Assembly (NCBI GenBank): GCA_016192455.1
Contig: JACPUC010000017.1
Span: 1 to 64,000, forward strand
DNA length: 64,000 nucleotides
Origin: Candidatus Tectimicrobiota bacterium
GTDB taxonomy: Bacteria > JACPUC01
Direction of reading: 5' to 3'
Position numbers and translations under genes: made by a program. Positions 2,291 to 54,213 of the stretch are shown here, piece after piece; positions within the stretch are counted from its first letter, which is position 1; each line of letters begins with the position of its first letter. The notes under the pieces were generated by a model. The model had not been told where the DNA came from and made no database searches. It saw only the letters and a list, made by a program, of their open reading frames with translations.

Positions 2291-3729
2291 TGGGTTCCGT
2301 CCTTGCTGTCTTCAACGATGATGCCGCGCGCCTGCAGCTCGTCGCGGATGCGGTCGGCCTCGGCGTAGTCGCGCGCCCGACGCGCCGCGTTGCGCCGTTC
2401 GAGCTGCGCCGCCACCCACTCCTCGGTCACCCGCGCGCCGCCGAGCGCCGGCTGCCAGCGAAGGTACTCCAACGGTTGCCGCTGCATGATGCCGAGGACT
2501 CCGCCCACCTCGCGCAACTCCGCCGCAGCGGCGGCGCTCCCCTCCAGCTCGCCTCGATCAAGCCGGGCATTGAGGGTGGTGCTCGCCTCAAAGAGGGCCG
2601 CCAACGCCGCCGCGCTGTTGAAGTCGTTGTCCATGGCGCCGCCAAACTTCCGGCGCAGGACACTCTCCCCCTCCTCGCCGGCCGCTGCCTGCCGCTCGCC
2701 CGCGCCCCCAGGCGCGGTGGAGGCTGCGGGAGCGGCCGCGGCGGCCGCATCGAGGCGCTGCAGGAGGGTGTAGAAGTAGTCGAGGTTCTTCTTCGCCGTC
2801 GCCATCGCCTCCTCGGTGTAGTCGACCGGGCTGCGGTAGTGCGTGGAAATGAGGAAGAGGCGGATGACCTCCGGGTGGTAGCGTTCCAGGAGGCTGCGCA
2901 CCGTCAGGAAATTGCCGAGCGATTTCGACATCTTTTCGTGCTGGATGTTCACGAAGCCGTTGTGCACCCAGAAGTTCACGAAGGGCTGGCCGCTGGCCGC
3001 CTGCGACTGGGCCACCTCGTTCTCGTGATGCGGGAAGAGGAGGTCCTTGCCGCCGCCGTGGATGTCGAAGTGGGCGCCGAGGTAGGCGTGGCTCATCGCC
3101 GAGCACTCGATGTGCCACCCCGGACGGCCCGCTCCCCAGGGAGACTCCCAGGTGGGCTCGCCCGGCTTCGCCCCCTTCCAGAGCGCGAAGTCGAGGGGGT
3201 TCGCCTTCGCCTCGTTGGCTTCCACCCGCGCGCCGCTGAGCATCTCGTCAAGCTGGCGTCCCGACAGCTCTCCGTAGCGGGGGAACTTCTCCACGGAGAA
3301 GTAGACGTCGCCGTTTGCCTGGTAGGCGTAGCCCTTCTTCAGGAGCACCTCGATCATGGCGATGATGTCGCGCATGTGCCCCGACACCGTCGGCTCATGC
3401 TCCGGGGTGAGGACCCCGAGGGCCGCCATATCCTCGCGGTACTCCTGGATATAGCGCTCTGCGATGACGGAGCTGGGGACGTTCTCCGCCCTGGAGCGCA
3501 GGATGATCTTGTCATCGACATCGGTGAAGTTGCGCACGTAGCGCACCCGGTAGCCTTGCCAGCAGAAGTAGCGCACGATGAGGTCGAAGACGACGGCGCT
3601 GCGCGCGTGGCCCACGTGGCAGGCGTCGTAGGCGGTGATGCCGCAGACATAGAGACGCACCACGCCGGGCTCCAAGGGTTGAAACGGCTCCTTGCGGCGG
3701 GTTCGCGTGTTGTAAATGACCAGCGGCAT
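2272..3729 (-). CDS. cysS: Cysteinyl-tRNA synthetase
   Basis: Class I aminoacyl-tRNA synthetase charging tRNA-Cys in the cytoplasm. Its 485 residues contain the HIGH-type motif HVGH within CGITAYDACHVGHARS (about residues 29-44), the zinc ligands of the family (that Cys, the Cys in HIECSAMSH, and HHENE) and the KMSKS loop KMSKSLGN. An Ala-rich insertion of about 25 residues (near 345-370) separates the catalytic core from the anticodon-binding domain. The ATG at 3729 follows GAGGA by seven bases. It starts three bases after gltX ends and overlaps rlmB. In B. subtilis cysE and mrnC lie in this stretch; neither is present here. Confidence 0.97.
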   Translation of the reverse strand: MPLVIYNTRTRRKEPFQPLEPGVVRLYVCGITAYDACHVGHARSAVVFDLIVRYFCWQGYRVRYVRNFTDVDDKIILRSRAENVPSSVIAERYIQEYREDMAALGVLTPEHEPTVSGHMRDIIAMIEVLLKKGYAYQANGDVYFSVEKFPRYGELSGRQLDEMLSGARVEANEAKANPLDFALWKGAKPGEPTWESPWGAGRPGWHIECSAMSHAYLGAHFDIHGGGKDLLFPHHENEVAQSQAASGQPFVNFWVHNGFVNIQHEKMSKSLGNFLTVRSLLERYHPEVIRLFLISTHYRSPVDYTEEAMATAKKNLDYFYTLLQRLDAAAAAAPAASTAPGGAGERQAAAGEEGESVLRRKFGGAMDNDFNSAAALAALFEASTTLNARLDRGELEGSAAAAAELREVGGVLGIMQRQPLEYLRWQPALGGARVTEEWVAAQLERRNAARRARDYAEADRIRDELQARGIIVEDSKDGTQWRRSG

Positions 3730-3732
3730 GCC

Positions 3733-5256
3733 TCATTCCTCGTGTTGGAGGGCCTCATCAAGGCGCTGCAAGGCAAGGGCGCGCCCCATAAGCGGCAACA
3801 GAGCCGCCAGCTCAGGACCATGCTCCCGACCGGTCAGCACCAGCCGCACCGGTCGGTAGAGCGCCTTCCCCTTGATGCCGTGTTCTCGGCCGATGTCCCG
3901 CAGGAGCTCCGGAATCCCGGCGCAGGCGGCTTCGTCGCCCTGGGCCAGGCCGGCGCGCAGGCTGTGGAGGACGCGCCGCGCCGTGTCCTCGCGCAGCATG
4001 GCACGGACGCTCTCAGGCAGCGGCAACGGCGCCGCCTCGAAGACACGCCACCAGGCGAGGAGGTCGCGCAGCGTCTCGCAGTTCTGCCGCACGGCATGGA
4101 CGAAGGTTTCCCAGCGGGCTCCTCCGGGGAGCCGCGCGGCGGCCTCGGGATCACACGCCACGAGCGCCTGGCGCGCCGCCGCCGCGTCAAGCCGCCGCAG
4201 GTACGTGGCATTCAACCAGCGGAGCTTGTGCCAGGGAACCGTGGCCGGGCTGCTGCGCACGCGCGCCAGGTCGAACCTCGCCAGGAGCGCCGCGGTGTCG
4301 AACACCTCTTCCCCCTCCGGGTGCGACCAGCCCAGAAGGGCCAGGAAGTTGCGCAGCGCCGAGGCCAGGTAGCCTTCCCGCCGGTAGCTGCGCAGGCTGG
4401 TGCTGGCGTCGCGCTTGCTCAACGGACGCTGGTCGGCATGGACGAGCAAGGGGACATGGGCAAAGCAGGGCACCGGCGCTCCGAGCGCCGCATAGAGGAG
4501 GAGCTGCCGCGGCGTGTTCGGGAGATGGTCATCGCCGCGCACCACGTGGCTGATCACCATGTCGCTGTCATCGACGACCACCGCCAGATTGTACGTCGGG
4601 CTGCCGTCGGAACGCTGCACGATAAAGTCGCCGAGCGTCGGGCCGTCAACCTCCTGGGGGCCGTGGATGGCATCCTCCCAGCGCAGGCGGCCGGGCGGCG
4701 TCAGGAACCGCAGGGCATGCGGCGCCCCGGCGGCGAGTTTCGCGGCTCGCTCGCTGCTGCGGAGCTGCCGGCAGGTCCCGCCGTACCGCGGCGCGAGACC
4801 GCGCCGCAGCATGGCCTGGCGCTCCGCCTCGAGCTGCTCCGGGGTGCAGAAGCAGGGATAGAGTCGCTCCCCGCGCTGCAAGGTCTCGAGCGCGGCGGCA
4901 TAGTGCGCCCCGCGGTCCGACTGGCGGTAAGGTCCGTAGGCCCCGCCGCAGTCGGGGCCTTCATCCCAATCGATGCCGAGCCAGCGCAGGTCTTCCAGAA
5001 TCGTCTGCTCCGCCTCCGGTGTCGAGCGCTCGCGGTCGGTATCCTCGATGCGCAGGATGAAGGCGCCGCTCCCCTTCGTCACCCCCCTTCCCCGGTGCTC
5101 CTGCCCTCCACTGACGCCGCAGGCGGGCGGCAGCGCGAGGTCGGCGGCCTGCCGCGCCAGGAGCCAGTTGAAGAGCGCCGTGCGTGCATTGCCGAGGTGC
5201 AAATTCCCGGTTGGGCTCGGCGCGAAACGTGTACGCACCCTGGCGGTAGCAGCCAT
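3733..5256 (-). CDS. gltX: Glutamyl-tRNA synthetase with an N-terminal insertion
   Basis: Charges tRNA-Glu (possibly also tRNA-Gln; I saw no glnS or gatCAB in the window to decide). The 507 residues begin RVRTRFAPSPTGNLHLGNAR (HIGH motif) and include the family hallmark ILRIEDTDRERST and the KMSKS equivalent PLSKRDAST. Between helix ARTALFNWLLARQAAD and strand AFILRIEDTD there are about 24 extra residues (roughly 40-63) where other GluRS proteins have only two to four. The frame stays open, so this is an insertion rather than a frameshift. It lies 42 bases downstream of ispF and three bases before cysS. Confidence 0.96.
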   Translation of the reverse strand: MAATARVRTRFAPSPTGNLHLGNARTALFNWLLARQAADLALPPACGVSGGQEHRGRGVTKGSGAFILRIEDTDRERSTPEAEQTILEDLRWLGIDWDEGPDCGGAYGPYRQSDRGAHYAAALETLQRGERLYPCFCTPEQLEAERQAMLRRGLAPRYGGTCRQLRSSERAAKLAAGAPHALRFLTPPGRLRWEDAIHGPQEVDGPTLGDFIVQRSDGSPTYNLAVVVDDSDMVISHVVRGDDHLPNTPRQLLLYAALGAPVPCFAHVPLLVHADQRPLSKRDASTSLRSYRREGYLASALRNFLALLGWSHPEGEEVFDTAALLARFDLARVRSSPATVPWHKLRWLNATYLRRLDAAAARQALVACDPEAAARLPGGARWETFVHAVRQNCETLRDLLAWWRVFEAAPLPLPESVRAMLREDTARRVLHSLRAGLAQGDEAACAGIPELLRDIGREHGIKGKALYRPVRLVLTGREHGPELAALLPLMGRALALQRLDEALQHEE

Positions 5257-18887: not shown

Positions 18888-19679
18888 TCAGCCGAGGAAG
18901 AGGTCGAAGTACCAGGCAAGGAGGGTGTTTCCGGCCAGGAGCGCCAGGAGCGCCCCAAGGGCCAGGTAGGGCCCAAAGGGGATGGGGGTGCGTCGGCTGT
19001 GCCGCAGGAGGAGGAGCATGGCGCCGCCGGTGAGCGACCCCAAGAAGGCCGCGAAGATGATCGTCAGCAAGGCGATCTTCCATCCCAGGAAGGCCCCCAC
19101 CATCGCCATGAGCTTGATATCGCCACCCCCCATCGCTTCCTGCTTCAAGAGCACGCCGCCCAGCACCCCAACGGCATAGAGCACGCCGCCGCCGACCAGC
19201 CCCCCGAACACCGCCCAGAGGGGTCCGTGGGGCAGAAGGAAGAGGCTCGCCAGAACCCCCGCGAGAGTTCCCGGCAGGGAGATGACGTCGGGGATGATCT
19301 GGTGCTCCAGGTCGATAAACGAGATGATCAGGAGCGCCTCGAAGAGGGCGAGGTAAGCCGGCAGCTCCCTGGACCAGCCGATCTCCCACCAGAGCAGCAG
19401 GAAGAGGAGGGCTGACAGCGCCTCAACGAGAGGGTAGCGCGGCGAGATGCGGCTGCCGCAGCTCCGGCAGCGGCCCCGCAGCAGCAGGTAGCTGAGGACC
19501 GGCAGGTTATCGAACCAGCGCACGGCGGCGCCGCAGTGGGGGCAGTGGGAGCCGGGGCGGACCACGGAGAGGCGGCGCGGCAGGCGGTGGATGCAGACAT
19601 TGGCGAAGCTGCCGAAGATGGCGCCCACCAGGGCCACCACGGCGCCTGCAAACGGACCAGCAAAGGGCTCGGGGCTCAC
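18888..19679 (-). CDS. pilD: Prepilin leader peptidase / N-methyltransferase
   Basis: Inner-membrane aspartyl protease that cleaves type IV prepilins and methylates the new N-terminus. The 263 residues include IFGSFANVCIHRLPRR, the zinc-type CPHCGAAVRW...CRSCGSRISPRYPLVE region required for methylation, and the two catalytic Asp segments FIDLEHQIIPD and AMGGGDIKLMAMVGAF, among about eight membrane segments. The start appears to be GTG at 19677-19679. It lies 32 bases downstream of asnB and on the strand of the two pilin genes, its likely substrates. Confidence 0.95.
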   Translation of the reverse strand: MSPEPFAGPFAGAVVALVGAIFGSFANVCIHRLPRRLSVVRPGSHCPHCGAAVRWFDNLPVLSYLLLRGRCRSCGSRISPRYPLVEALSALLFLLLWWEIGWSRELPAYLALFEALLIISFIDLEHQIIPDVISLPGTLAGVLASLFLLPHGPLWAVFGGLVGGGVLYAVGVLGGVLLKQEAMGGGDIKLMAMVGAFLGWKIALLTIIFAAFLGSLTGGAMLLLLRHSRRTPIPFGPYLALGALLALLAGNTLLAWYFDLFLG

Positions 19680-22050: not shown

Positions 22051-22437
22051 TTAGCACCCTGCCGTGCACTTGATGGACCCATCGGCGTAGGTGAGCGTCC
22101 ACACCTCGCCGGCGATATCGAAGCCGGCCTTGCCGGTTCCGGTCGAGGTCTTGTCGTCCACCACCGCATACTGGTAGTAGGTCTCGCCGGTCGGCGCTTC
22201 GTAGTTGACCTCCAACGCCGTCTTGCCGTACCGGCCGTGCTCAGCCTTATACACCTCCTGGAGCGTCCGGATGTGCCCAAGTTCCTGCTTCGCCTCGCTC
22301 TGCCGCGCCCGCTTCGAGTAGCTCTTGAAATTCGGAATGGCAATTGCCGCCAGAATCCCGATGATGGCCACGACGATCATCAGCTCGATGAGCGTAAAGC
22401 CCTTCTCTCCCCAGTTCTCGTTCCGCCGTGCGAGCAT
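22051..22437 (-). CDS. pilA: Type IV major pilin-like protein, copy 1
   Basis: Subunit of a type IV pilus or pseudopilus. The 128-residue prepilin has leader [13 protein letters not shown], cut before [18 protein letters not shown]; Glu5 of the mature protein is present. The remaining 90 residues form the globular head with [16 protein letters not shown] and end in CTAGC, the only two cysteines, too close for the usual D-loop disulfide. It differs from copy 2 at only five positions (R5Q, N8K, Y63F, H67K, S121T). ATG 22435-22437 follows GGAGACAGGAG. A sigma-54 promoter lies about 75 bases upstream. pilD is 2.4 kb downstream on the same strand. Confidence 0.95.
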
Positions 22438-23258: not shown

Positions 23259-23645
23259 TTAGCACCCTGCCGTGCACTTGATGGTTCCATCCGCGTAGGT
23301 GAGCGTCCACACCTCGCCGGCGATATCGAAGCCGGCCTTGCCGGTTCCGGTCGAGGTCTTGTCATCCACCACTGCGTACTGGTAGTAGGTTTCGCCCGTG
23401 GGCGCTTCGTAGTTGACCTCCAACGCCGTCTTGCCGTACCGGCCCTTTTCAGCCTTGAACACCTCCTGGAGCGTCCGGATGTGCCCGAGTTCCTGCTTCG
23501 CCTCGCTCTGGCGCGCCCGCTTCGAGTAGCTCTTGAAGTTCGGAATGGCAATCGCCGCCAGAATCCCGATGATGGCCACAACGATCATCAACTCGATGAG
23601 CGTAAAGCCTTTCTCTCCCCATTTCTCATTCTGCCGTGCGAGCAT
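23259..23645 (-). CDS. pilA: Type IV major pilin-like protein, copy 2
   Basis: Almost identical to copy 1: 128 residues, leader [13 protein letters not shown], then [18 protein letters not shown] and the same head ending in CTAGC. Two of the five differences fall in the cleaved leader, so the mature proteins differ at three positions only. ATG 23643-23645. Its sigma-54 promoter and paired upstream palindromes mirror those of copy 1. The terminator has lost its T-run, so read-through into copy 1 is possible. Confidence 0.95.
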
Positions 23646-46348: not shown

Positions 46349-46900
46349 TCAGAGGGCCGGCGCGCCACTCGACCGCCGCGCCCGGGGCTTCGTCTCTTCG
46401 TCTCGCTTCAGCTTGCGGAGCTTGCGCTTCGCCAGATCGCGTTTCAACGGGCTCAAGTAATCGAGGAAGAGGATGCCCTCCAGGTGGTCAAGCTCGTGCT
46501 GCACGGCGCGCGCTTCCAGGCCGTGCACGTGGCGCTCGAACCACGCGCCGTGGCGGTCCTGCGCCCGCACGCGGACCGTCGCCGCGCGCCGCACCACGGC
46601 CGAGTACTCGGGAACGCTCAAACAGCCCTCTTCGGCCTCCTCCACTCCCTCGAGCTCGACGATCTTGGGGTTCACGAGCTCCATCAGCTTCCCCGTCTCG
46701 TCGCCCACCGAGAGGTCGATGATCATCAGCCGCCGCAGCACCCCCACCTGGGGGGCCGCCAATCCGACGCCCGGGGCCAAGTACATCGTCTCCAGCATAT
46801 CATCGAGGAGGCGGTGCAGTTCCCCGTCGAACTCCACCACCGGAGCCGATTTCTGTCGCAAGAGGGGGTCGGGGTACGTCAAAATTCTCAACCGAGCCAC
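46349..46900 (-). CDS. def: Peptide deformylase
   Basis: Metalloenzyme removing N-formyl from nascent proteins. 183 residues with the three motifs PGVGLAAPQVGVLRR, EEGCLSVPEYSAV and VQHELDHLEGILFLD (metal ligands Cys and two His). A basic tail of about 25 residues follows. Start GTG 46898-46900, seven bases after AGGAG. First of def-fmt-rsmB. Confidence 0.97.
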   Translation of the reverse strand: MARLRILTYPDPLLRQKSAPVVEFDGELHRLLDDMLETMYLAPGVGLAAPQVGVLRRLMIIDLSVGDETGKLMELVNPKIVELEGVEEAEEGCLSVPEYSAVVRRAATVRVRAQDRHGAWFERHVHGLEARAVQHELDHLEGILFLDYLSPLKRDLAKRKLRKLKRDEETKPRARRSSGAPAL

Positions 46901-47141
46901 GTTCTATCTCCTACCCTCCCTCTTCTCACGCCTGCTCCTCACCACCCCGGCGCACTCACGCTCAGGCGGCCCCAGGAGGCCGCGGGAGGCGTGGGAGGGC
47001 TTGCGACACGACGCCGTTCGACGTAGCATCACGTGGACCAGCTACGAGTAACTTTAATCACCTGAGCGCAGAAGGGCAACCCGTCGCCTTGCTTCTCCGA
47101 CCGGACCCCCTTCGCCGCCTTCCGCGAGCTGGATTCGCAGG
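46901..47141. other. Divergent spacer with relic of a longer TPR gene
   Basis: No promoter recognised. From the TAA at 47055-47057 to the ATG at 47142 the frame of the following TPR gene is open for 28 codons (SPERRRATRRLASPTGPPSP and so on), similar in composition to the Pro/Arg linker that precedes the same point in its two paralogues. This suggests a 5' truncation. Confidence 0.5.
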
Positions 47142-48812
47142 ATGGGAGCAGAACTCGGGCAGCGGCCACGGCTCCGTCTCTCCCAAGGGCTCGCTCTGGG
47201 GGTGCTGGCGCTGCTCGCAATCCTCAGCCTTCTCCGCATGGAGGTCTGGCGGGACAGCCTGAGCCTCTGGCGCGACGCCAGCCGCAAGGCGCCCCAGCTC
47301 GCCCTGCCCCACAATAACCTGGGAGACGCTTACCAGGCCAGCGGCTCGGCCGACCGCGCCATGGTGGAGCTGAAGACGGCCCTCCACCTCTCGCCCAAGT
47401 TCGCCAAGCCCTCCATCCGCCTCGCCGACCTCTACCGAAGCCTTGGCCGCACCAGCCAGGGCCTGGCGGCGGCGCGGTGGGCCGTGCACCTCATCCCGGA
47501 GAACCATGCCGCCCGCAACGCCCTGGGGTCGCTCTTCTTGCAGCGCGGCCTTGCCAGCAAGGCGCTCGCCGAATTCGCCCTGGCGACGACCCTGCATCCC
47601 CGGGACCCCCTGAGCGCCGCGAACCTCGCCGCCGCGCTCCTCGCGCTGGCGCAGCCCCGGCGCGCGGCGGATCGGCTGGCGCGGCTGGTGGAGGAGGTTC
47701 CCGAAGCCTTCACGGCGCAGACGAACCTTGCGGTGGCCTTCACGCACCTCGGCCTCGCCACCAAGGCGGTGGCCGCGCTGCAGACGGCCCGCCGTCTCCG
47801 TCCCAGCGCCGCGCTGAACCTCCAGCTTGGGATTGCGCTCGCCGGGCTCGGGGAGACGCGGCGAGCGGAGGCGCGTCTGCGCGCCCGCCGGGGCCCAGTC
47901 GGCCTCTCGCCCGACCTACGGGCCAGGCTGGCGGCGGTCCTCCTGGAGCAGGCGCGACCGGCGAAGGCGTTGGCGGAGCTCCTGCAAGCGCTCCACGACG
48001 CCCCCGACAACCCGCAGCTCGCTCCCCCGCTCGCCTCGGTCTACCTCCGCATCGGTCTCCCTGAGCGCGCCCTCGCCAACCTCCGGAAGGCTCTGCGGCG
48101 CGCGCCGCACCTTGCCGGCGGCCAGACGAAGCTGGCGGCGGCCTACCTCGCGCGGGGCCAGCGGCTGAAGGCCGCGGCTGCCCTCCTCGCGGCGGTCGCC
48201 GACGATCCGACCTCCGAGAACGCCTGGAAGAACCTCGGCGATACCTTCCGCCTCCTGGGGGCGCCGCGCTCCACCGCGCGGGCCTACCGCCGCGTCATCG
48301 CGATCAACGGGCGGGAGGCGTCGAACTGGAACGCGCTGGGCGCCGCCCTCTACGACGCCGGTCAGTTCGATCAGGCGACGCGGGCTTTCCTCGAGGGTCT
48401 CCGCCGACAGCCCGGCGCGGCGGCGCTCTGGAACAACCTTGGCACTCTCGCTGCCCGCGCCGGCCACCTGCGTCAGGCGAGCCGCGCCTTGCAGCGCGCC
48501 CTGCGCCTGGATCCGGGATCGAGCCCCGCACGCAACACGCTGGGGTTCCTCTTCAACCAGCAGCAGCAGTATGACGCCGCCCTCGTGCAGTTCAAGAGCG
48601 CGCTCCTGCTGAACCGGCAGCAGGTGCAGAGCGCCTTCAACATCGCCTCGGTGCTGAAGGAACGAGGGCGGCCCGAGCAGGCCCTGGCGTGGTTCGAGTA
48701 CTTCCGGCGGAAGTGGCGGGGCGCTCCGCACCTGACCTCCCTGGCAGAGCAGGAGATCGCGGCGCTGCGCAGGCTCCTCCACGCTCCTCCAGGAAAGGCG
48801 CGCGAGCCATGA
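47142..48812 (+). CDS. TPR protein lacking the GT-C membrane domain (first of three paralogues)
   Basis: 556 residues: one membrane segment (LGVLALLAILSLLRM) then about 14 tetratricopeptide repeats to the end, beginning after MEVWRDSLSLWRDASRKAPQ. This junction sequence (VWRDSLSLWRDA, HNNLGDAYQ) is the same as that joining the membrane and TPR parts of the next two genes, so the protein corresponds to their C-terminal half only. ATG 47142 has only a weak ribosome-binding site (CAGG). It ends 10 bases before the next gene, so the three are likely one operon. TPRs imply protein binding on the periplasmic or cytoplasmic face; function unknown. Confidence 0.85.
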   Translation: MGAELGQRPRLRLSQGLALGVLALLAILSLLRMEVWRDSLSLWRDASRKAPQLALPHNNLGDAYQASGSADRAMVELKTALHLSPKFAKPSIRLADLYRSLGRTSQGLAAARWAVHLIPENHAARNALGSLFLQRGLASKALAEFALATTLHPRDPLSAANLAAALLALAQPRRAADRLARLVEEVPEAFTAQTNLAVAFTHLGLATKAVAALQTARRLRPSAALNLQLGIALAGLGETRRAEARLRARRGPVGLSPDLRARLAAVLLEQARPAKALAELLQALHDAPDNPQLAPPLASVYLRIGLPERALANLRKALRRAPHLAGGQTKLAAAYLARGQRLKAAAALLAAVADDPTSENAWKNLGDTFRLLGAPRSTARAYRRVIAINGREASNWNALGAALYDAGQFDQATRAFLEGLRRQPGAAALWNNLGTLAARAGHLRQASRALQRALRLDPGSSPARNTLGFLFNQQQQYDAALVQFKSALLLNRQQVQSAFNIASVLKERGRPEQALAWFEYFRRKWRGAPHLTSLAEQEIAALRRLLHAPPGKAREP

Positions 48813-48822
48813 AGGGAAGCGT

Positions 48823-51303
48823 GTGAACGCGACGGCACAACCCGCCACGCTCCCGCAGGGGGCGCCGCGCTCTCGGCAATGGGGAGCGGCGGCCCTGGTC
48901 TTCGCGCTCAGCTCGCTGCTCTACCTGCCGGCGCTGACGTTTCAGTTCACGAACTGGGACGACAACGTCCTGGTGACGGAGAACCCACTCCTCCAGGTGC
49001 TCCGTCCGGACATCATCATCGAGGTCTTCACCTCCTTCCAGGCGCACGACTACTGGCCGCTCAACCTGCTCTCCCTGGCGCTCGACCGGCTGCTCTGGGG
49101 CTTCAACCCCGCCGGCTACCACCTGACGAACCTGCTCCTGCACGCCCTGAACGCGGCGCTCGTCTACCTCCTGCTCCTGCGCCTGGCGGGGCCCGGGCTG
49201 CCGGCCCTCCTCGGCGCCCTCTGGTTTGGGCTGCACCCCCTGCAGGTCGAGTCGGTGGCCTGGGTGGCCGAGCGCAAGAATGTCCTCTCCCTTGCCCTCT
49301 TTCTCGCGGCGTTCCTGAGCTACGCGCAGGCGCTCCGCGGCGCGGCGCGGCGAGCAGAGGGCGGCGCTGGGGGCGGCGCGCCACCCTCCTCGTCGCTGCA
49401 CCTCGGTTGGTACGCCGCCTCCCTCGGGTTCTTCGCCCTCGCCCTGCTCGCGAAGTCGAGCACGGTGGTCCTGCCGGGGATTCTCCTCGCTTTTCACCTC
49501 TGCGCGCGGCGATCCGGCCTCCGCGCCACCGCGCCGCACTTCGTCTTGGCGGCGGCGGGGGTCATGCTGACGCTGCTGCCGAAGACGCACGTCATCACGA
49601 GCTACCACGGCGGCGGTCTCCTCCCCACCCTGCTGACCCTGCCGATCCTCGTGACGACGTACCTCCTCAAACTCCTCCTGCCCGTGCAGCTCACCGCTTA
49701 CTACGATACGGCCGCCGTGGCCTCCGCCGCGGAAGGACGCTTCTGGGTGGCCCTGCTGGCGCTCCTGGCGCTGGCGCTCACCGGCCATCGCCTCTGGCGC
49801 TGGAGCCGCCGCGCCGCCTTCGGGCTGGCCTGGTTCCTGCTCGGGCTGGCGCCGGTGCTGCAGCTCATCCCGTTCCCGACCCTCTTCGCCGAGCGGTTCG
49901 TCTACCTGCCCTCGGTTGGGCTGGCGCTGTTCGGCTCCACCCTCGCCGCTCATCTCCAGGCCAGGTGGGACGCCGATGCCGGGAGCAGCGGCACGGCAGG
50001 AGGGCTCGCCGAGACTGCTCCTCTCCGCTCGCGCCGCCCGGCTTCACCGCCGGCCGTTCGCGCCTCCGCCCGGCGCAGGCGCCTCGCCGCCGCCTTGAGC
50101 GCCGCGGCGCTCCTCCTCCTGGCGCTCCTGGCGGGCTGGCGTCTGCCGGTGTGGCGCAGCAGCCTGACACTCTGGCGCGACGCGCTGGCGAAGGCGCCGG
50201 GGCTAAGCCTGGCGCACAACAACCTGAGCAACGCTTACCGCGAGGCCGGGGCCTGGGACCGCGCCCTCAGGGAGGCGTTCGCGGCGCTCTCCCGCGCGCC
50301 CCACTACGCCAAGGCGCACCACAACCTGGGGATGGCCCTCCTGGCCCGCGGTCGAGGCCGTGATGCCGCGCTGCATCTCCGCATGGCGCTGCGCCTCGCG
50401 CCTGACACGCCCGCCTTCGCCAGCGCCGTGGCTCTTGCCTTCGTCAAGCTGCAGCGCCCCACGAAGGCGGTGGCGGCCGGGCTCGATGCCCTCTCCCTCG
50501 CAGCCCTGACGCCTGAGGCCCATCTCATCCTCGGCTGGGCCTATGCCAACCTCGACGAAGCGGCACGCGCCCTGCGACCGTTGGCGCGCGCGCTCGCCTC
50601 CCGGCCGGATTGGCCCGACGGACACCGCCTGCAAGGCTTTGCGTTCCTGCGGCTGCACCAGCCCACGAAGGCGGTAGCGGAGCTCCTCACCGCCATTCGC
50701 CTCGCCCCCGAGCAGGAGGAGAGCTGGCGCTACCTTGGGGATAGCTTCACGAGCGCCCGCCAGCTTCGCCGCGCCGTCACGGCGTACCGAACCGCGCTAC
50801 GCAAGGACGCGCGCAGCGCCCGGGGCTGGAACAACCTCGGCGACGCCCTCCTGACGCTCGACCACAGCGATGCGGCGGCCCTGGCGTTCCTGCGCAGCCT
50901 TAGCTCCGATTCCAGCTACGAGAAAGCCTGGAACAACCTCGGCAGCGTCGCCACGCAGCGGCGGCGCGCCCTCCGGGGAGCGGGGGCGCTGCGGCAAGCC
51001 TTGCTGCTGGCGCCGACGTACGCCCACGCCCACAGCAACCTCGGCGTCGCCTTCAACGCCCTGGGCCGGCGCGACGCCGCCCTGGCGCAGTTCCAGCATG
51101 CCCTGGTCCTGCAGCCTGGTCATCCCCAGAGCATGTTCAACATTGCGGCGCTGCTGCAACGTCTCGGGCGCACGCAGCTTGCCCTGCGGTGGTACGAGCG
51201 GGTGCGGCGATCGGCGCAAGGTCCGCCCTCCCTGGCGCGACGGGCCGAGGAGGAGAGCGCCCTCCTGCGCGCCGCCTCCACGACCGCCCTGCCGCCTCCC
51301 TGA
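48823..51303 (+). CDS. TMTC-like GT-C membrane protein with TPR repeats (second paralogue)
   Basis: 826 residues: about ten membrane segments (20-400) and about 11 TPRs. The membrane domain has FTNWDDNVLVTENPLL, DYWPLNLLSLALDRLLWGFN, AGYHLTNLLLHALNAALVYL and GLHPLQVESVAWVAERKNVL. The acidic pair in the first outer loop (WDD), the YHLTN and HPLxVE segments and the TPR tail match the plan of animal TMTC O-mannosyltransferases. Bacterial members are uncharacterised; transfer of sugar from a lipid carrier to proteins is inference. Start GTG 48823 behind GAAGGGAAGC. Confidence 0.88.
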   Translation: MNATAQPATLPQGAPRSRQWGAAALVFALSSLLYLPALTFQFTNWDDNVLVTENPLLQVLRPDIIIEVFTSFQAHDYWPLNLLSLALDRLLWGFNPAGYHLTNLLLHALNAALVYLLLLRLAGPGLPALLGALWFGLHPLQVESVAWVAERKNVLSLALFLAAFLSYAQALRGAARRAEGGAGGGAPPSSSLHLGWYAASLGFFALALLAKSSTVVLPGILLAFHLCARRSGLRATAPHFVLAAAGVMLTLLPKTHVITSYHGGGLLPTLLTLPILVTTYLLKLLLPVQLTAYYDTAAVASAAEGRFWVALLALLALALTGHRLWRWSRRAAFGLAWFLLGLAPVLQLIPFPTLFAERFVYLPSVGLALFGSTLAAHLQARWDADAGSSGTAGGLAETAPLRSRRPASPPAVRASARRRRLAAALSAAALLLLALLAGWRLPVWRSSLTLWRDALAKAPGLSLAHNNLSNAYREAGAWDRALREAFAALSRAPHYAKAHHNLGMALLARGRGRDAALHLRMALRLAPDTPAFASAVALAFVKLQRPTKAVAAGLDALSLAALTPEAHLILGWAYANLDEAARALRPLARALASRPDWPDGHRLQGFAFLRLHQPTKAVAELLTAIRLAPEQEESWRYLGDSFTSARQLRRAVTAYRTALRKDARSARGWNNLGDALLTLDHSDAAALAFLRSLSSDSSYEKAWNNLGSVATQRRRALRGAGALRQALLLAPTYAHAHSNLGVAFNALGRRDAALAQFQHALVLQPGHPQSMFNIAALLQRLGRTQLALRWYERVRRSAQGPPSLARRAEEESALLRAASTTALPPP

Positions 51304-51420
51304 GGAGCGCGTCGGCCGCGCCGACAGGGTCATGGGCGACTGCCTTGCGCTCGTCCCACGCTCGTGGCAGGCTCGTTCCAGAAAAGTGCGCCCGGGCACA
51401 GGAGGGTGAGAGGTTCCAGC

Positions 51421-54213
51421 ATGCGTCGTCGCTCAGCCATGTTGAGGCACCCAGCCCTTGCCGCGCTGCTCGTCTTCGCGCTCAGCGCCGCCGTCTACCT
51501 GCCGACGCTCGGCTACCCCTTCACGAACTGGGATGACCTCCTCCTGGTCACGGAGAATCCGCTCATCCGCGATCTCAGCGCGCGGAATTTCCGCGACATC
51601 TTCACCTCCACCTACGCCCACGACTACTGGCCGCTGAGCCTGGCGTCGTTGGCGCTCGACCGGCTGCTCTGGGGCTTCAACCCGGCGGGCTACCACCTGA
51701 CGAACCTCATCCTGCACGGCGTCAACGCCGCGCTCGTCTACCTCCTCCTCGTGCGCCTCACCGGCACGGGCGTGGCCGCCCTTCTCGGGGCCCTCTGGTT
51801 TGGTCTGCACCCCCTGCATGTCGAGTCGGTTGCCTGGGTGGCGGAGCGCAAGAACGTCCTCTCGCAGGTCTTGGTGCTGGCAGCGGTGCTCGCCTACCTG
51901 CGCGCTGGGGCCCTCGGGACGGCAGCCGGAAACGGTACGCGGCGGGGCGCGTACCTCGCCTCGCTCGCCCTCTTCGCCGGCGCGCTGCTGTCGAAAACGA
52001 GCACCGTGGTCCTGCCGGCGATCCTCGTTGCCCTCCACCTCTGCCTGGGACGGCCGCGCCTCGTGCTGACGCTGCCGCACTTCGTCCTCGCCGCCCTGGG
52101 CTCCCTGGTGACGCTTCTTTCAAAGGCGGAGTTCGTGCAGACCTACCCCGCCGGCGGCTTCGCGGCCGCCCTCCTGACGCTGCCGACGCTCCTTTCGGCC
52201 TACGTCGCCAAGCTGCTCTTTCCGGTTCAGCTTAATGCCTTCTACGACTTCATCCCGGTGCGCGGCCCGGCAACGGTGAAGTTCTGGATCGCGTTGGCGT
52301 TCCTCGCCGCGGTCGCCCTCCTCATGCGCTCGCTGTGGCGCTGGGAGCGCCGCGCTCTCTTCGGCCTCGCGTGGCTCTTCCTGGCGTTCCTGCCGGTGTT
52401 GAACCTCGTGCCGTTTCCGATCCTCTTCGCCGAGCGCTTCGCCTACCTGCCCTCGGTGGGTCTGGCGATCTTCGGGGTGTGCGTTGGCTCGCGCCTGACC
52501 GGCGCCGTCGCGCCTCTGGCGCCCACGCCGGCGGCCGCGCACGCGGCGACGAGGGGAAGCGACGCCGGGCTTCCTTCGGCAGCGGCCCGGACGGCGGGCG
52601 GCCTGCTGCGTCGGGCGGTTCCCGGCGGCGCCGCCGTGTGCCTGGCGCTCCTGGGCGCCCTGACCCTCAGCCGCGGCCGCGTGTGGGCTGACAGTATGAG
52701 CCTCTGGCGGGACGTCATCCGCAAGTCGCCGCGCCTCAGCGTGCCGCACCACAACCTCGGCGCCGACTACCGGCAACGCGGTCAGCAGAATCGCGCGGCG
52801 GCGGAGTACCTGACGGCGCTCGCCCTCGATCCGGGCCATCCCGAGTCGCAGATGAACCTCGGCAACCTCGACCTCGATGCCGGCCGCCTGGACCGCGCCG
52901 TGCTGCGCTACCAGCGTGAGCTTAGCCGCGTGCCGCGCTCCTCCATGGCCCGCAGCAACCTCGGCGTGGCATACACCCGCAAGGGGCTGCCCGCGCGCGC
53001 CGCGGCCGCCTTCGAGCGCGCCCAGGCCCTCTACCCTCGCGATCCCCGCCTGCTCGTCAAGCTCGGCAACGCCTACGCGCAGCAGCGCCGCTACCACCTC
53101 GCCCTCCTGCGGCTTCAGGAGGCGCTGCGGCGCAGCCCGCGGCTCCTCGGGAACGACGCCGAGCTGGCGAACCTCCTCGGCACGATCTACGGTCGCCTCG
53201 GTGAAGTGCGACGGGCTGCCGCCTTCCACACGCGGGCGCTGCAACGCGACCCGATGCTGCCGGCGGGTTTCATCAACCTTGCGAACGCCTTCGATGCCCT
53301 CCGGCAGCGCGATCGCGCCCTGCATGCCGCCCAGGCGGCAGCCGCGCTGGCTCCTAACCAGACCGAGGCCCTCACCAATCTGGGGGCCCTCCTCGTCGAG
53401 GTGGGGCGCCCCCTGCGGGCGGAGCGCTTCCTGCGCGCCGGCTTGCGCCGCGCCCCCGGCACCGCCAAGGCTCGCCTGGCCCTGGCGCGCGCCTTCCAGG
53501 AGGCGGGTCGCTCGGAGAGGGCCATGCTGGCCGTGAAGACGGAGCTGCGCGGCGATCCCCGCCTTGTGGGCGGCTGGACCCAGCTCGGCGATCTCTACGC
53601 GGCGCGACATCGCCCCCGCAAGGCCGCCGCGGCGTATCGTGTCGCCGTGCGCCTCGACGCGGCGGACCCCAGCGCCTGGAATCGCCTTGGCTACCTCTGG
53701 CACCAGCATGGCACGCCCGATCGCGCCGGCGCTGCCTACCTGCAGGCTCTCGCCCTGCTGGCGGGCCCCCTGCGCCACCCGCCGGCGGCGCCGGCCTCAC
53801 GCTCCGCCGGCAGCGCTCAACCGCTCGCGATTCGCGCGAACCAGGTGGCGCGAGCCTGGAGCAACTTCGGCGCCATCGCCGCCAGCCGCGGCCGCGGGGA
53901 TCGCGCCCGCCGGGCCTTGCAGCGGGTCCTCCGCCTGAACCCGGAGTACGAGCCGGCCCACCTCAACCTCGGCTCGCTGCTCAGCCGCCAGGAGCGCTAT
54001 GATGCGGCGCTCCTGCACTTCGCCATGGCCATGCGGCTGAACCGGCGCCGCGCCGAGAGCGCCTTCAACATGGCCAGCATGCTCGAGGCGCGCGGCCAAG
54101 CCCGACAAGCGCTGCACTGGTACGAGCACTTCCGCGAGCGCTGGCAGGGCGCGGCGAGCCTGGACAGCGTGGCGGCGCAGAAGATCGCGCAGCTCCGCGC
54201 GCTCCTGGAGTGA
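51421..54213 (+). CDS. TMTC-like GT-C membrane protein with TPR repeats (third paralogue)
   Basis: 930 residues with the same plan as the preceding gene: FTNWDDLLLVTENPLI, DYWPLSLASLALDRLLWGFN, GYHLTNLILHGVNAALVYLL, GLHPLHVESVAWVAERKNVL, a linker, a last membrane helix, VWADSMSLWRDVIRKSPRLS and about 13 TPRs. ATG 51421 follows GAGAGG by seven bases; ATG 51439 is an alternative. It begins 117 bases after the second paralogue. Extra TPRs relative to it lie in the C-terminal half. It converges on cbiX. Confidence 0.88.
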   Translation: MRRRSAMLRHPALAALLVFALSAAVYLPTLGYPFTNWDDLLLVTENPLIRDLSARNFRDIFTSTYAHDYWPLSLASLALDRLLWGFNPAGYHLTNLILHGVNAALVYLLLVRLTGTGVAALLGALWFGLHPLHVESVAWVAERKNVLSQVLVLAAVLAYLRAGALGTAAGNGTRRGAYLASLALFAGALLSKTSTVVLPAILVALHLCLGRPRLVLTLPHFVLAALGSLVTLLSKAEFVQTYPAGGFAAALLTLPTLLSAYVAKLLFPVQLNAFYDFIPVRGPATVKFWIALAFLAAVALLMRSLWRWERRALFGLAWLFLAFLPVLNLVPFPILFAERFAYLPSVGLAIFGVCVGSRLTGAVAPLAPTPAAAHAATRGSDAGLPSAAARTAGGLLRRAVPGGAAVCLALLGALTLSRGRVWADSMSLWRDVIRKSPRLSVPHHNLGADYRQRGQQNRAAAEYLTALALDPGHPESQMNLGNLDLDAGRLDRAVLRYQRELSRVPRSSMARSNLGVAYTRKGLPARAAAAFERAQALYPRDPRLLVKLGNAYAQQRRYHLALLRLQEALRRSPRLLGNDAELANLLGTIYGRLGEVRRAAAFHTRALQRDPMLPAGFINLANAFDALRQRDRALHAAQAAAALAPNQTEALTNLGALLVEVGRPLRAERFLRAGLRRAPGTAKARLALARAFQEAGRSERAMLAVKTELRGDPRLVGGWTQLGDLYAARHRPRKAAAAYRVAVRLDAADPSAWNRLGYLWHQHGTPDRAGAAYLQALALLAGPLRHPPAAPASRSAGSAQPLAIRANQVARAWSNFGAIAASRGRGDRARRALQRVLRLNPEYEPAHLNLGSLLSRQERYDAALLHFAMAMRLNRRRAESAFNMASMLEARGQARQALHWYEHFRERWQGAASLDSVAAQKIAQLRALLE

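Follow-up and report, generated by a model that had tools for sequence, protein, structure and literature searches.

Three adjacent genes of a Candidatus Tectimicrobiota genome raise the question of what a bacterium does with proteins that combine a membrane domain and a long series of TPRs, in the manner of the animal TMTC O-mannosyltransferases. In the window (the whole stretch of 64,000 nucleotides that was analysed), P0001 (47142..48812, + strand, 556 aa), P0002 (48823..51303, + strand, 826 aa) and P0003 (51364..54213, + strand, 949 aa as listed) are co-directional, separated by intergenic gaps of 10 and 60 bp, and have the same GC3 of ~0.89. For P0003, the ATG at 51421, behind AGGAGGGTGAGAGG, is the more likely start, giving a protein of 930 aa. 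P0002 and P0003 consist of a membrane head and a TPR tail; P0001 is a head-less paralogue.

The genes flanking the array have housekeeping functions: one flank carries def, fmt and rsmB, the other CbiX and a sulfite/nitrite reductase. No glycosylation genes adjoining P0001-P0003 were found among the cluster neighbours inspected. Elsewhere in the window, the segment 12001-14000 has a much lower GC content (0.50 vs. ~0.69 for the whole window).

Fold and Active Site of the Membrane Heads

Hydropathy indicates many hydrophobic segments ahead of the TPRs in P0002 and P0003, and one in P0001. The membrane domain covers approximately residues 20-444 of P0002 (48880..50154, + strand) and 25-436 of P0003 (51436..52671, + strand), and the two heads share 59% identity. 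Searches of the PDB by sequence gave no match at E ≤ 10 with the head alone, and one chance-level match only with the family profile.

The AlphaFold2 model of the P0003 head, built from a 90-row alignment, has a pLDDT of 91.7 and a pTM of 0.92. In Foldseek, both matches at E ≤ 0.001 were to the aminoarabinose transferase ArnT (best E 1.6e-5), followed by Pmt4 and oligosaccharyltransferases (OST). VIA-align gave Z scores of 19-21 over 322-348 residues for Pmt4, STT3/AglB and ArnT; the values of 21.1 for Pmt4, 20.9 for yeast STT3 and 20.3 for ArnT are ties, as Z differences below 1 carry no ranking. Nearly all VIA-align rows listed were GT-C enzymes. The P0003 model thus matches known GT-C structures, with no sign of a different membrane fold, and the heads of both P0002 and P0003 are predicted to have the GT-C glycosyltransferase fold. 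In our reading of the model, the P0003 head has 11 membrane helices and, between TM7 and TM8, one further helix of juxtamembrane type. The published topology model of TMTC has the same number of spans and a juxtamembrane helix at the same place (PMC7801869).

The acidic motif WDD is found at residues 45-47 of P0002 (48955..48963, + strand) by translation and alignment and, in the homologue alignment, at residues 56-58 of P0003 (51529..51537, + strand), in the first external loop. Among 114 homologues, D57 (P0003 numbering) is kept in 112 and D58 in 111, so the acidic pair of the initial annotation is not generally lost. Two basic residues are also conserved: the EL3 lysine (K211 of P0003) in 113 of the 114 and the EL5 arginine (R358 of P0003) in 101. 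The aspartate pair, the lysine and the arginine are all intact in both P0002 and P0003. In PMTs, the corresponding EL3 lysine and EL5 arginine have been described as ligands of Dol-P-Man (PMC6801728).

Comparison with TMTC, PMT and ArnT

The order of parts proposed initially for the two long paralogues, a membrane head and then a TPR tail as in animal TMTCs, holds for both P0002 and P0003. Animal TMTC1-4 (CAZy GT105) share with them the 11-helix GT-C head, in which DD lies in the first external loop and ERxxY precedes TM10, and, across the membrane, a TPR tail. The resemblance can be followed through the seven TMTC motifs tabulated in PMC7801869. Motif 1 (DD) is present in both proteins, and motif 7 (ERxxY) is found as ERFVY and ERFAY. 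Motif 6 (PxxP, in TM9) reads LPVLNLVPFP in P0003, with the prolines present at a different spacing. The remaining four differ: motif 2 (SHKSYRP) reads AHDYWP, keeping Y and P and neither the arginine nor the rest; motif 3 (RxD) reads RKN; motif 4 (KE(T/Q)xxT) reads KSS or KTS, with the lysine kept and the glutamate changed to S or T; and motif 5 (DW) is absent, the sequences being TAYYDT in P0002 and NAFYDF in P0003.

Furthermore, DUF1736 (PF08409), the TMTC segment between TM7 and TM8, was matched by neither P0002 nor P0003 at E ≤ 1. It was matched by one of 90 relatives (7e-5), and a search of the host genome, run without a positive control, gave no match at E ≤ 0.001. Because motifs 2, 3, 4 and 5 and DUF1736 were searched for and are altered or missing, P0002 and P0003 should not be filed as TMTCs; as far as their sequences tell, they share the TMTC plan, not TMTC detail. 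In TMTC, modelling has placed the motif-4 glutamate and the motif-5 DW where metal and donor bind (PMC7801869); with neither in P0002 and P0003, their chemistry may differ from that of TMTC. Elsewhere in the genome, seven paralogues (L011, L012:9246, three genes of L013, L014 and L015) carry YRP, R-E-D or R-E-E, and KE, and appear closer than P0002 and P0003 to the animal pattern.

PMT/POMT enzymes (GT39), represented by Pmt4, have in common with the window proteins the membrane fold, the acidic motif, the EL3 lysine and the EL5 arginine. They differ in that P0002 and P0003 have no PMT, PMT_2 or MIR Pfam match and bear a TPR tail instead; PMT_2 was matched by 22 of 90 relatives. ArnT is bacterial, like the window proteins, and uses an undecaprenyl-phosphate sugar, but its 13 membrane helices are combined with a periplasmic domain of another type than TPR (PMC7801869), whereas the window heads have 11 helices and TPRs. 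Closest in architecture are other bacterial GT-C/TPR proteins (e.g., AMJ42_05695, cited in PMC7801869), which also share the WDD, the EL3 lysine, a DRYxY and frequent tandem runs; those outside this genome are 23-35% identical to the window clade and have fewer TPRs than P0003.

TPR Tails and the Head-Less Paralogue

The Pfam matches of all three proteins are essentially to TPR-type families only, with E-values down to 2e-34. A consensus scan against shuffled sequences identified 11 clear TPRs in P0001, nine in P0002 (tail at 50206..51225, + strand, 9-10 repeats) and 13 in P0003 (52738..54153, + strand). By these sequence criteria, the repeats are genuine. The description of two long paralogues joining a WDD-containing multi-span domain to 11-13 TPRs stands for the motif, the head, the repeats and the 13 of P0003; it is slightly high for P0002, because nine repeats are clear and the tail has room for 10 in register. 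The 13 TPRs of P0003 are the most of all members examined (median 5), and at least two clear TPRs are present in 96 of 101 relatives.

P0001 had been described as a TPR-only relative. It is indeed a paralogue with TPRs, but its N-terminus forms a membrane helix that corresponds to TM11 of the other two, placed by hydropathy at residues 9-37 (47166..47252, + strand) and extending over residues 9-49 in the AlphaFold2 model. P0001 aligns with residues 417-948 of P0003, up to the C-terminus (41% identity), and so retains the final membrane helix, the linker VWRDSLSLWRD and the complete set of TPRs. A three-frame reading of 46801-47300 showed no remnant of a GT-C head; a hidden head upstream was discarded on this ground, and def, which is divergently oriented, has its start at 46900. 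P0001 has lost the enzyme head and kept the last membrane helix and the TPR tail.

The AlphaFold2 model of P0001 (three-row alignment; pLDDT 85.5, pTM 0.58) consists of one long helix and a solenoid of ~14 helical hairpins; among solved structures, this solenoid most resembles the O-GlcNAc transferase TPR superhelix (E 4e-18). O-GlcNAc transferase is a soluble GT-B enzyme; the window solenoid, on the contrary, is predicted to be membrane-anchored, and its catalytic part is GT-C or absent. No other anchor-plus-TPR gene like P0001 was seen beside related loci, with a short TPR ORF of 212 aa in L111 as a possible exception. One candidate for a second P0001, L017:4843-6816, turned out to be a common TPR protein whose N-terminus resembles that of a lipoprotein.

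Distribution and Tandem Copies

The genome (4.46 Mb in 31 contigs, 88% complete) contains 13 GT-C/TPR genes, including P0002 and P0003. A scan of 84,980 species yielded at least 583 relatives among at least 590 matched stretches; those among the matches listed come from many phyla and are mostly ~30-36% identical. The genomes compared include no other member of the host phylum. In a sample of 290 bacterial genomes, the family profile (threshold 1e-20; heads scored, TPRs not part of the criterion) matched 124 (~43%), many of them with six or more genes.

The adjacent P0002 and P0003 are tandem paralogues, as initially noted, and the survey of copy number showed that such runs are common: two or more heads occur in tandem in 19 of the 101 runs counted around related genes. 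The array itself is thus ordinary for the family, and tandem expansion, taken at first as a sign of several substrates, gives no such indication alone. The same genome has another run of three GT-C/TPR genes in tandem (L013, 6590-12565, contig C7), which belongs to the animal-TMTC-like motif class. Tandem runs of two to four GT-C/TPR genes are also present in Geobacteraceae (L044, L064, L077 and L078), some members of which can be cultivated. The literature searched yielded no experimental study of bacterial GT-C/TPR proteins.

Different Histories of Heads and Tails

In the tree of the heads, P0002 and P0003 are sisters, with the paralogue L009 next to them (99/95 and 100/99). Another paralogue, L012:4186-6609, groups with L016 and a Nitrospirota gene (93/85 and 100/99). 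The tree of the tails (last 140 residues) gives another picture: the tail of this L012 gene, which resembles those of the P0001-P0003 cluster, is placed with P0001 and P0003 (99/90), then P0002 (97/87), and L009 lies elsewhere. Identities calculated in blocks follow the same pattern. L012 vs. P0003 is mostly 32-42% in the head (one block 16%) and 55-58% near the end, and L009 vs. P0003 is mostly 48-67% in the head and 22-42% in the tail.

Constrained trees were compared for groups picked after the trees were seen, and the p-values are to be read in that light. For the heads, holding P0002, P0003 and L012 together was rejected (AU p 1.5e-8). For the tails, both P0001, P0002, P0003 and L009 held together (AU p 0.004) and L012 held with L016 (p 0.016) were rejected; the comparison of L012 inside vs. 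beside the P0001-P0003 group gave p 0.22. The different trees of heads and tails suggest that TPR tails have been exchanged between paralogous heads, on the basis of a short (150 columns) and repetitive tail alignment and of a single genome. A more far-reaching idea, speculative and in our opinion unlikely, is a combinatorial repertoire of protein glycosylation, in which 13 heads would be served by exchanged, acceptor-binding TPR tails, the head-less P0001 of the same operon would lend or withhold substrates, and acceptor choice would evolve by tail swapping.

Proposed Function and Alternative Explanations

The host genome encodes Omp85, and the host is therefore taken to be diderm. We consider it somewhat probable that P0002 and P0003 glycosylate exported proteins from a polyprenyl-phosphate sugar, with P0001 as an adaptor, decoy or partner. 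P0002 and P0003 would be inner-membrane GT-C glycosyltransferases with both the active site and the TPR tail in the periplasm. By homology, the head would take a sugar from a putative polyprenyl-phosphate-sugar donor at the outward-facing side of the membrane; the EL3 lysine and the EL5 arginine would bind the phosphate of the donor, and the WDD acidic pair would lie at the acceptor or metal site. The sugar would then be passed to a putative acceptor, an exported protein recruited by the periplasmic TPR superhelix. P0001, having no active site, would putatively act in the same membrane as adaptor, decoy or partner.

For the donor, the neighbourhoods of relatives are informative. A GT2 gene of the AglJ/PpgS/DPMS-like type overlaps the GT-C/TPR gene in L047 and L098, follows it after 6 bp in L059 and lies within 180 bp of it in L045 and L054. 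These polyprenyl-phosphate-hexose-synthase-like genes beside some relatives support a lipid-linked sugar as the probable donor. In the flanks of 80 related loci, the main shared homology clusters were GT2, ABC-transporter and response-regulator proteins, and only the GT2 cluster looked meaningful to us. The host itself has one clear DPMS/AglJ-like GT2 (L117, 1063-2283, contig C2), with 52% identity to the GT2 of L098 over the stretch searched; it is far from P0001-P0003 and adjoins a Wzy_C O-antigen-ligase-type gene.

This last neighbour also fits the main rival explanation, in which the GT-C heads would add sugar to a glycan or lipid of the cell envelope, much as ArnT modifies lipid A, with the TPR tail as their tether to an assembly complex. 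The first place of ArnT in Foldseek favours such a role, and so does an exopolysaccharide-type GT2 (3067-4089, with C-terminal hydrophobic segments) located directly after the paralogue L012:4186-6609 on contig C7. However, the structures with the highest Z scores, tied as they are, include the protein modifiers Pmt4 and STT3. Moreover, among families built on this head-tail plan, TMTC alone has an assigned role, and it modifies proteins; recruitment of the acceptor by the TPRs has been proposed for it (PMC11292533). The likeness of the TPR tail to the O-GlcNAc transferase superhelix also favours a protein as acceptor. Envelope decoration is rather unlikely on this balance, though it comes closest to protein glycosylation.

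The altered motifs leave room for another interpretation, namely that the heads of the window clade have degenerated and serve as scaffolds in the membrane, P0001 being the extreme case. Motifs 2, 3 and 5 and the motif-4 glutamate are lost in P0002, P0003 and L009, and P0001, if it works at all, works headless. The active-site residues that P0002 and P0003 retain (aspartate pair, EL3 lysine and EL5 arginine) argue against it. Besides, neither KE nor the motif-2 arginine is present in 101 of the 114 homologues, so most share the motif class of P0002 and P0003, which indicates a widespread class rather than decay. Degeneration is accordingly improbable.

The window also contains two near-identical type IV pilin genes (22051-22437 and 23259-23645, - strand; 128 aa each, ~0.8 kb apart) and a prepilin peptidase gene (18888-19679), and pilins had been named as conceivable targets; a dedicated pilin glycosylation system is nevertheless very improbable and was rejected as a specific role for P0001-P0003, since the pilin genes are ~24 kb away behind translation and other housekeeping genes, no conserved pilin neighbour was found among the flank homology clusters of the 80 related loci, and no genetic link emerged.

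Protein glycosylation by P0002 and P0003, with P0001 beside them, thus remains our preferred reading. The family itself is already widespread; what is new here is the head-less tail of P0001 and the discordance between heads and tails, which together make this family a good place to test the role of the TPR tail. Such heads occur in about four in ten of the sampled bacterial genomes, and their plan is in common with the human TMTC enzymes. At this locus, two heads that are close relatives carry different tails and a further tail has no head, which makes for a natural comparison. Tests of P0001-P0003 would reveal whether acceptor choice depends on the TPR tail, as is also asked of the TMTCs (PMC11292533).
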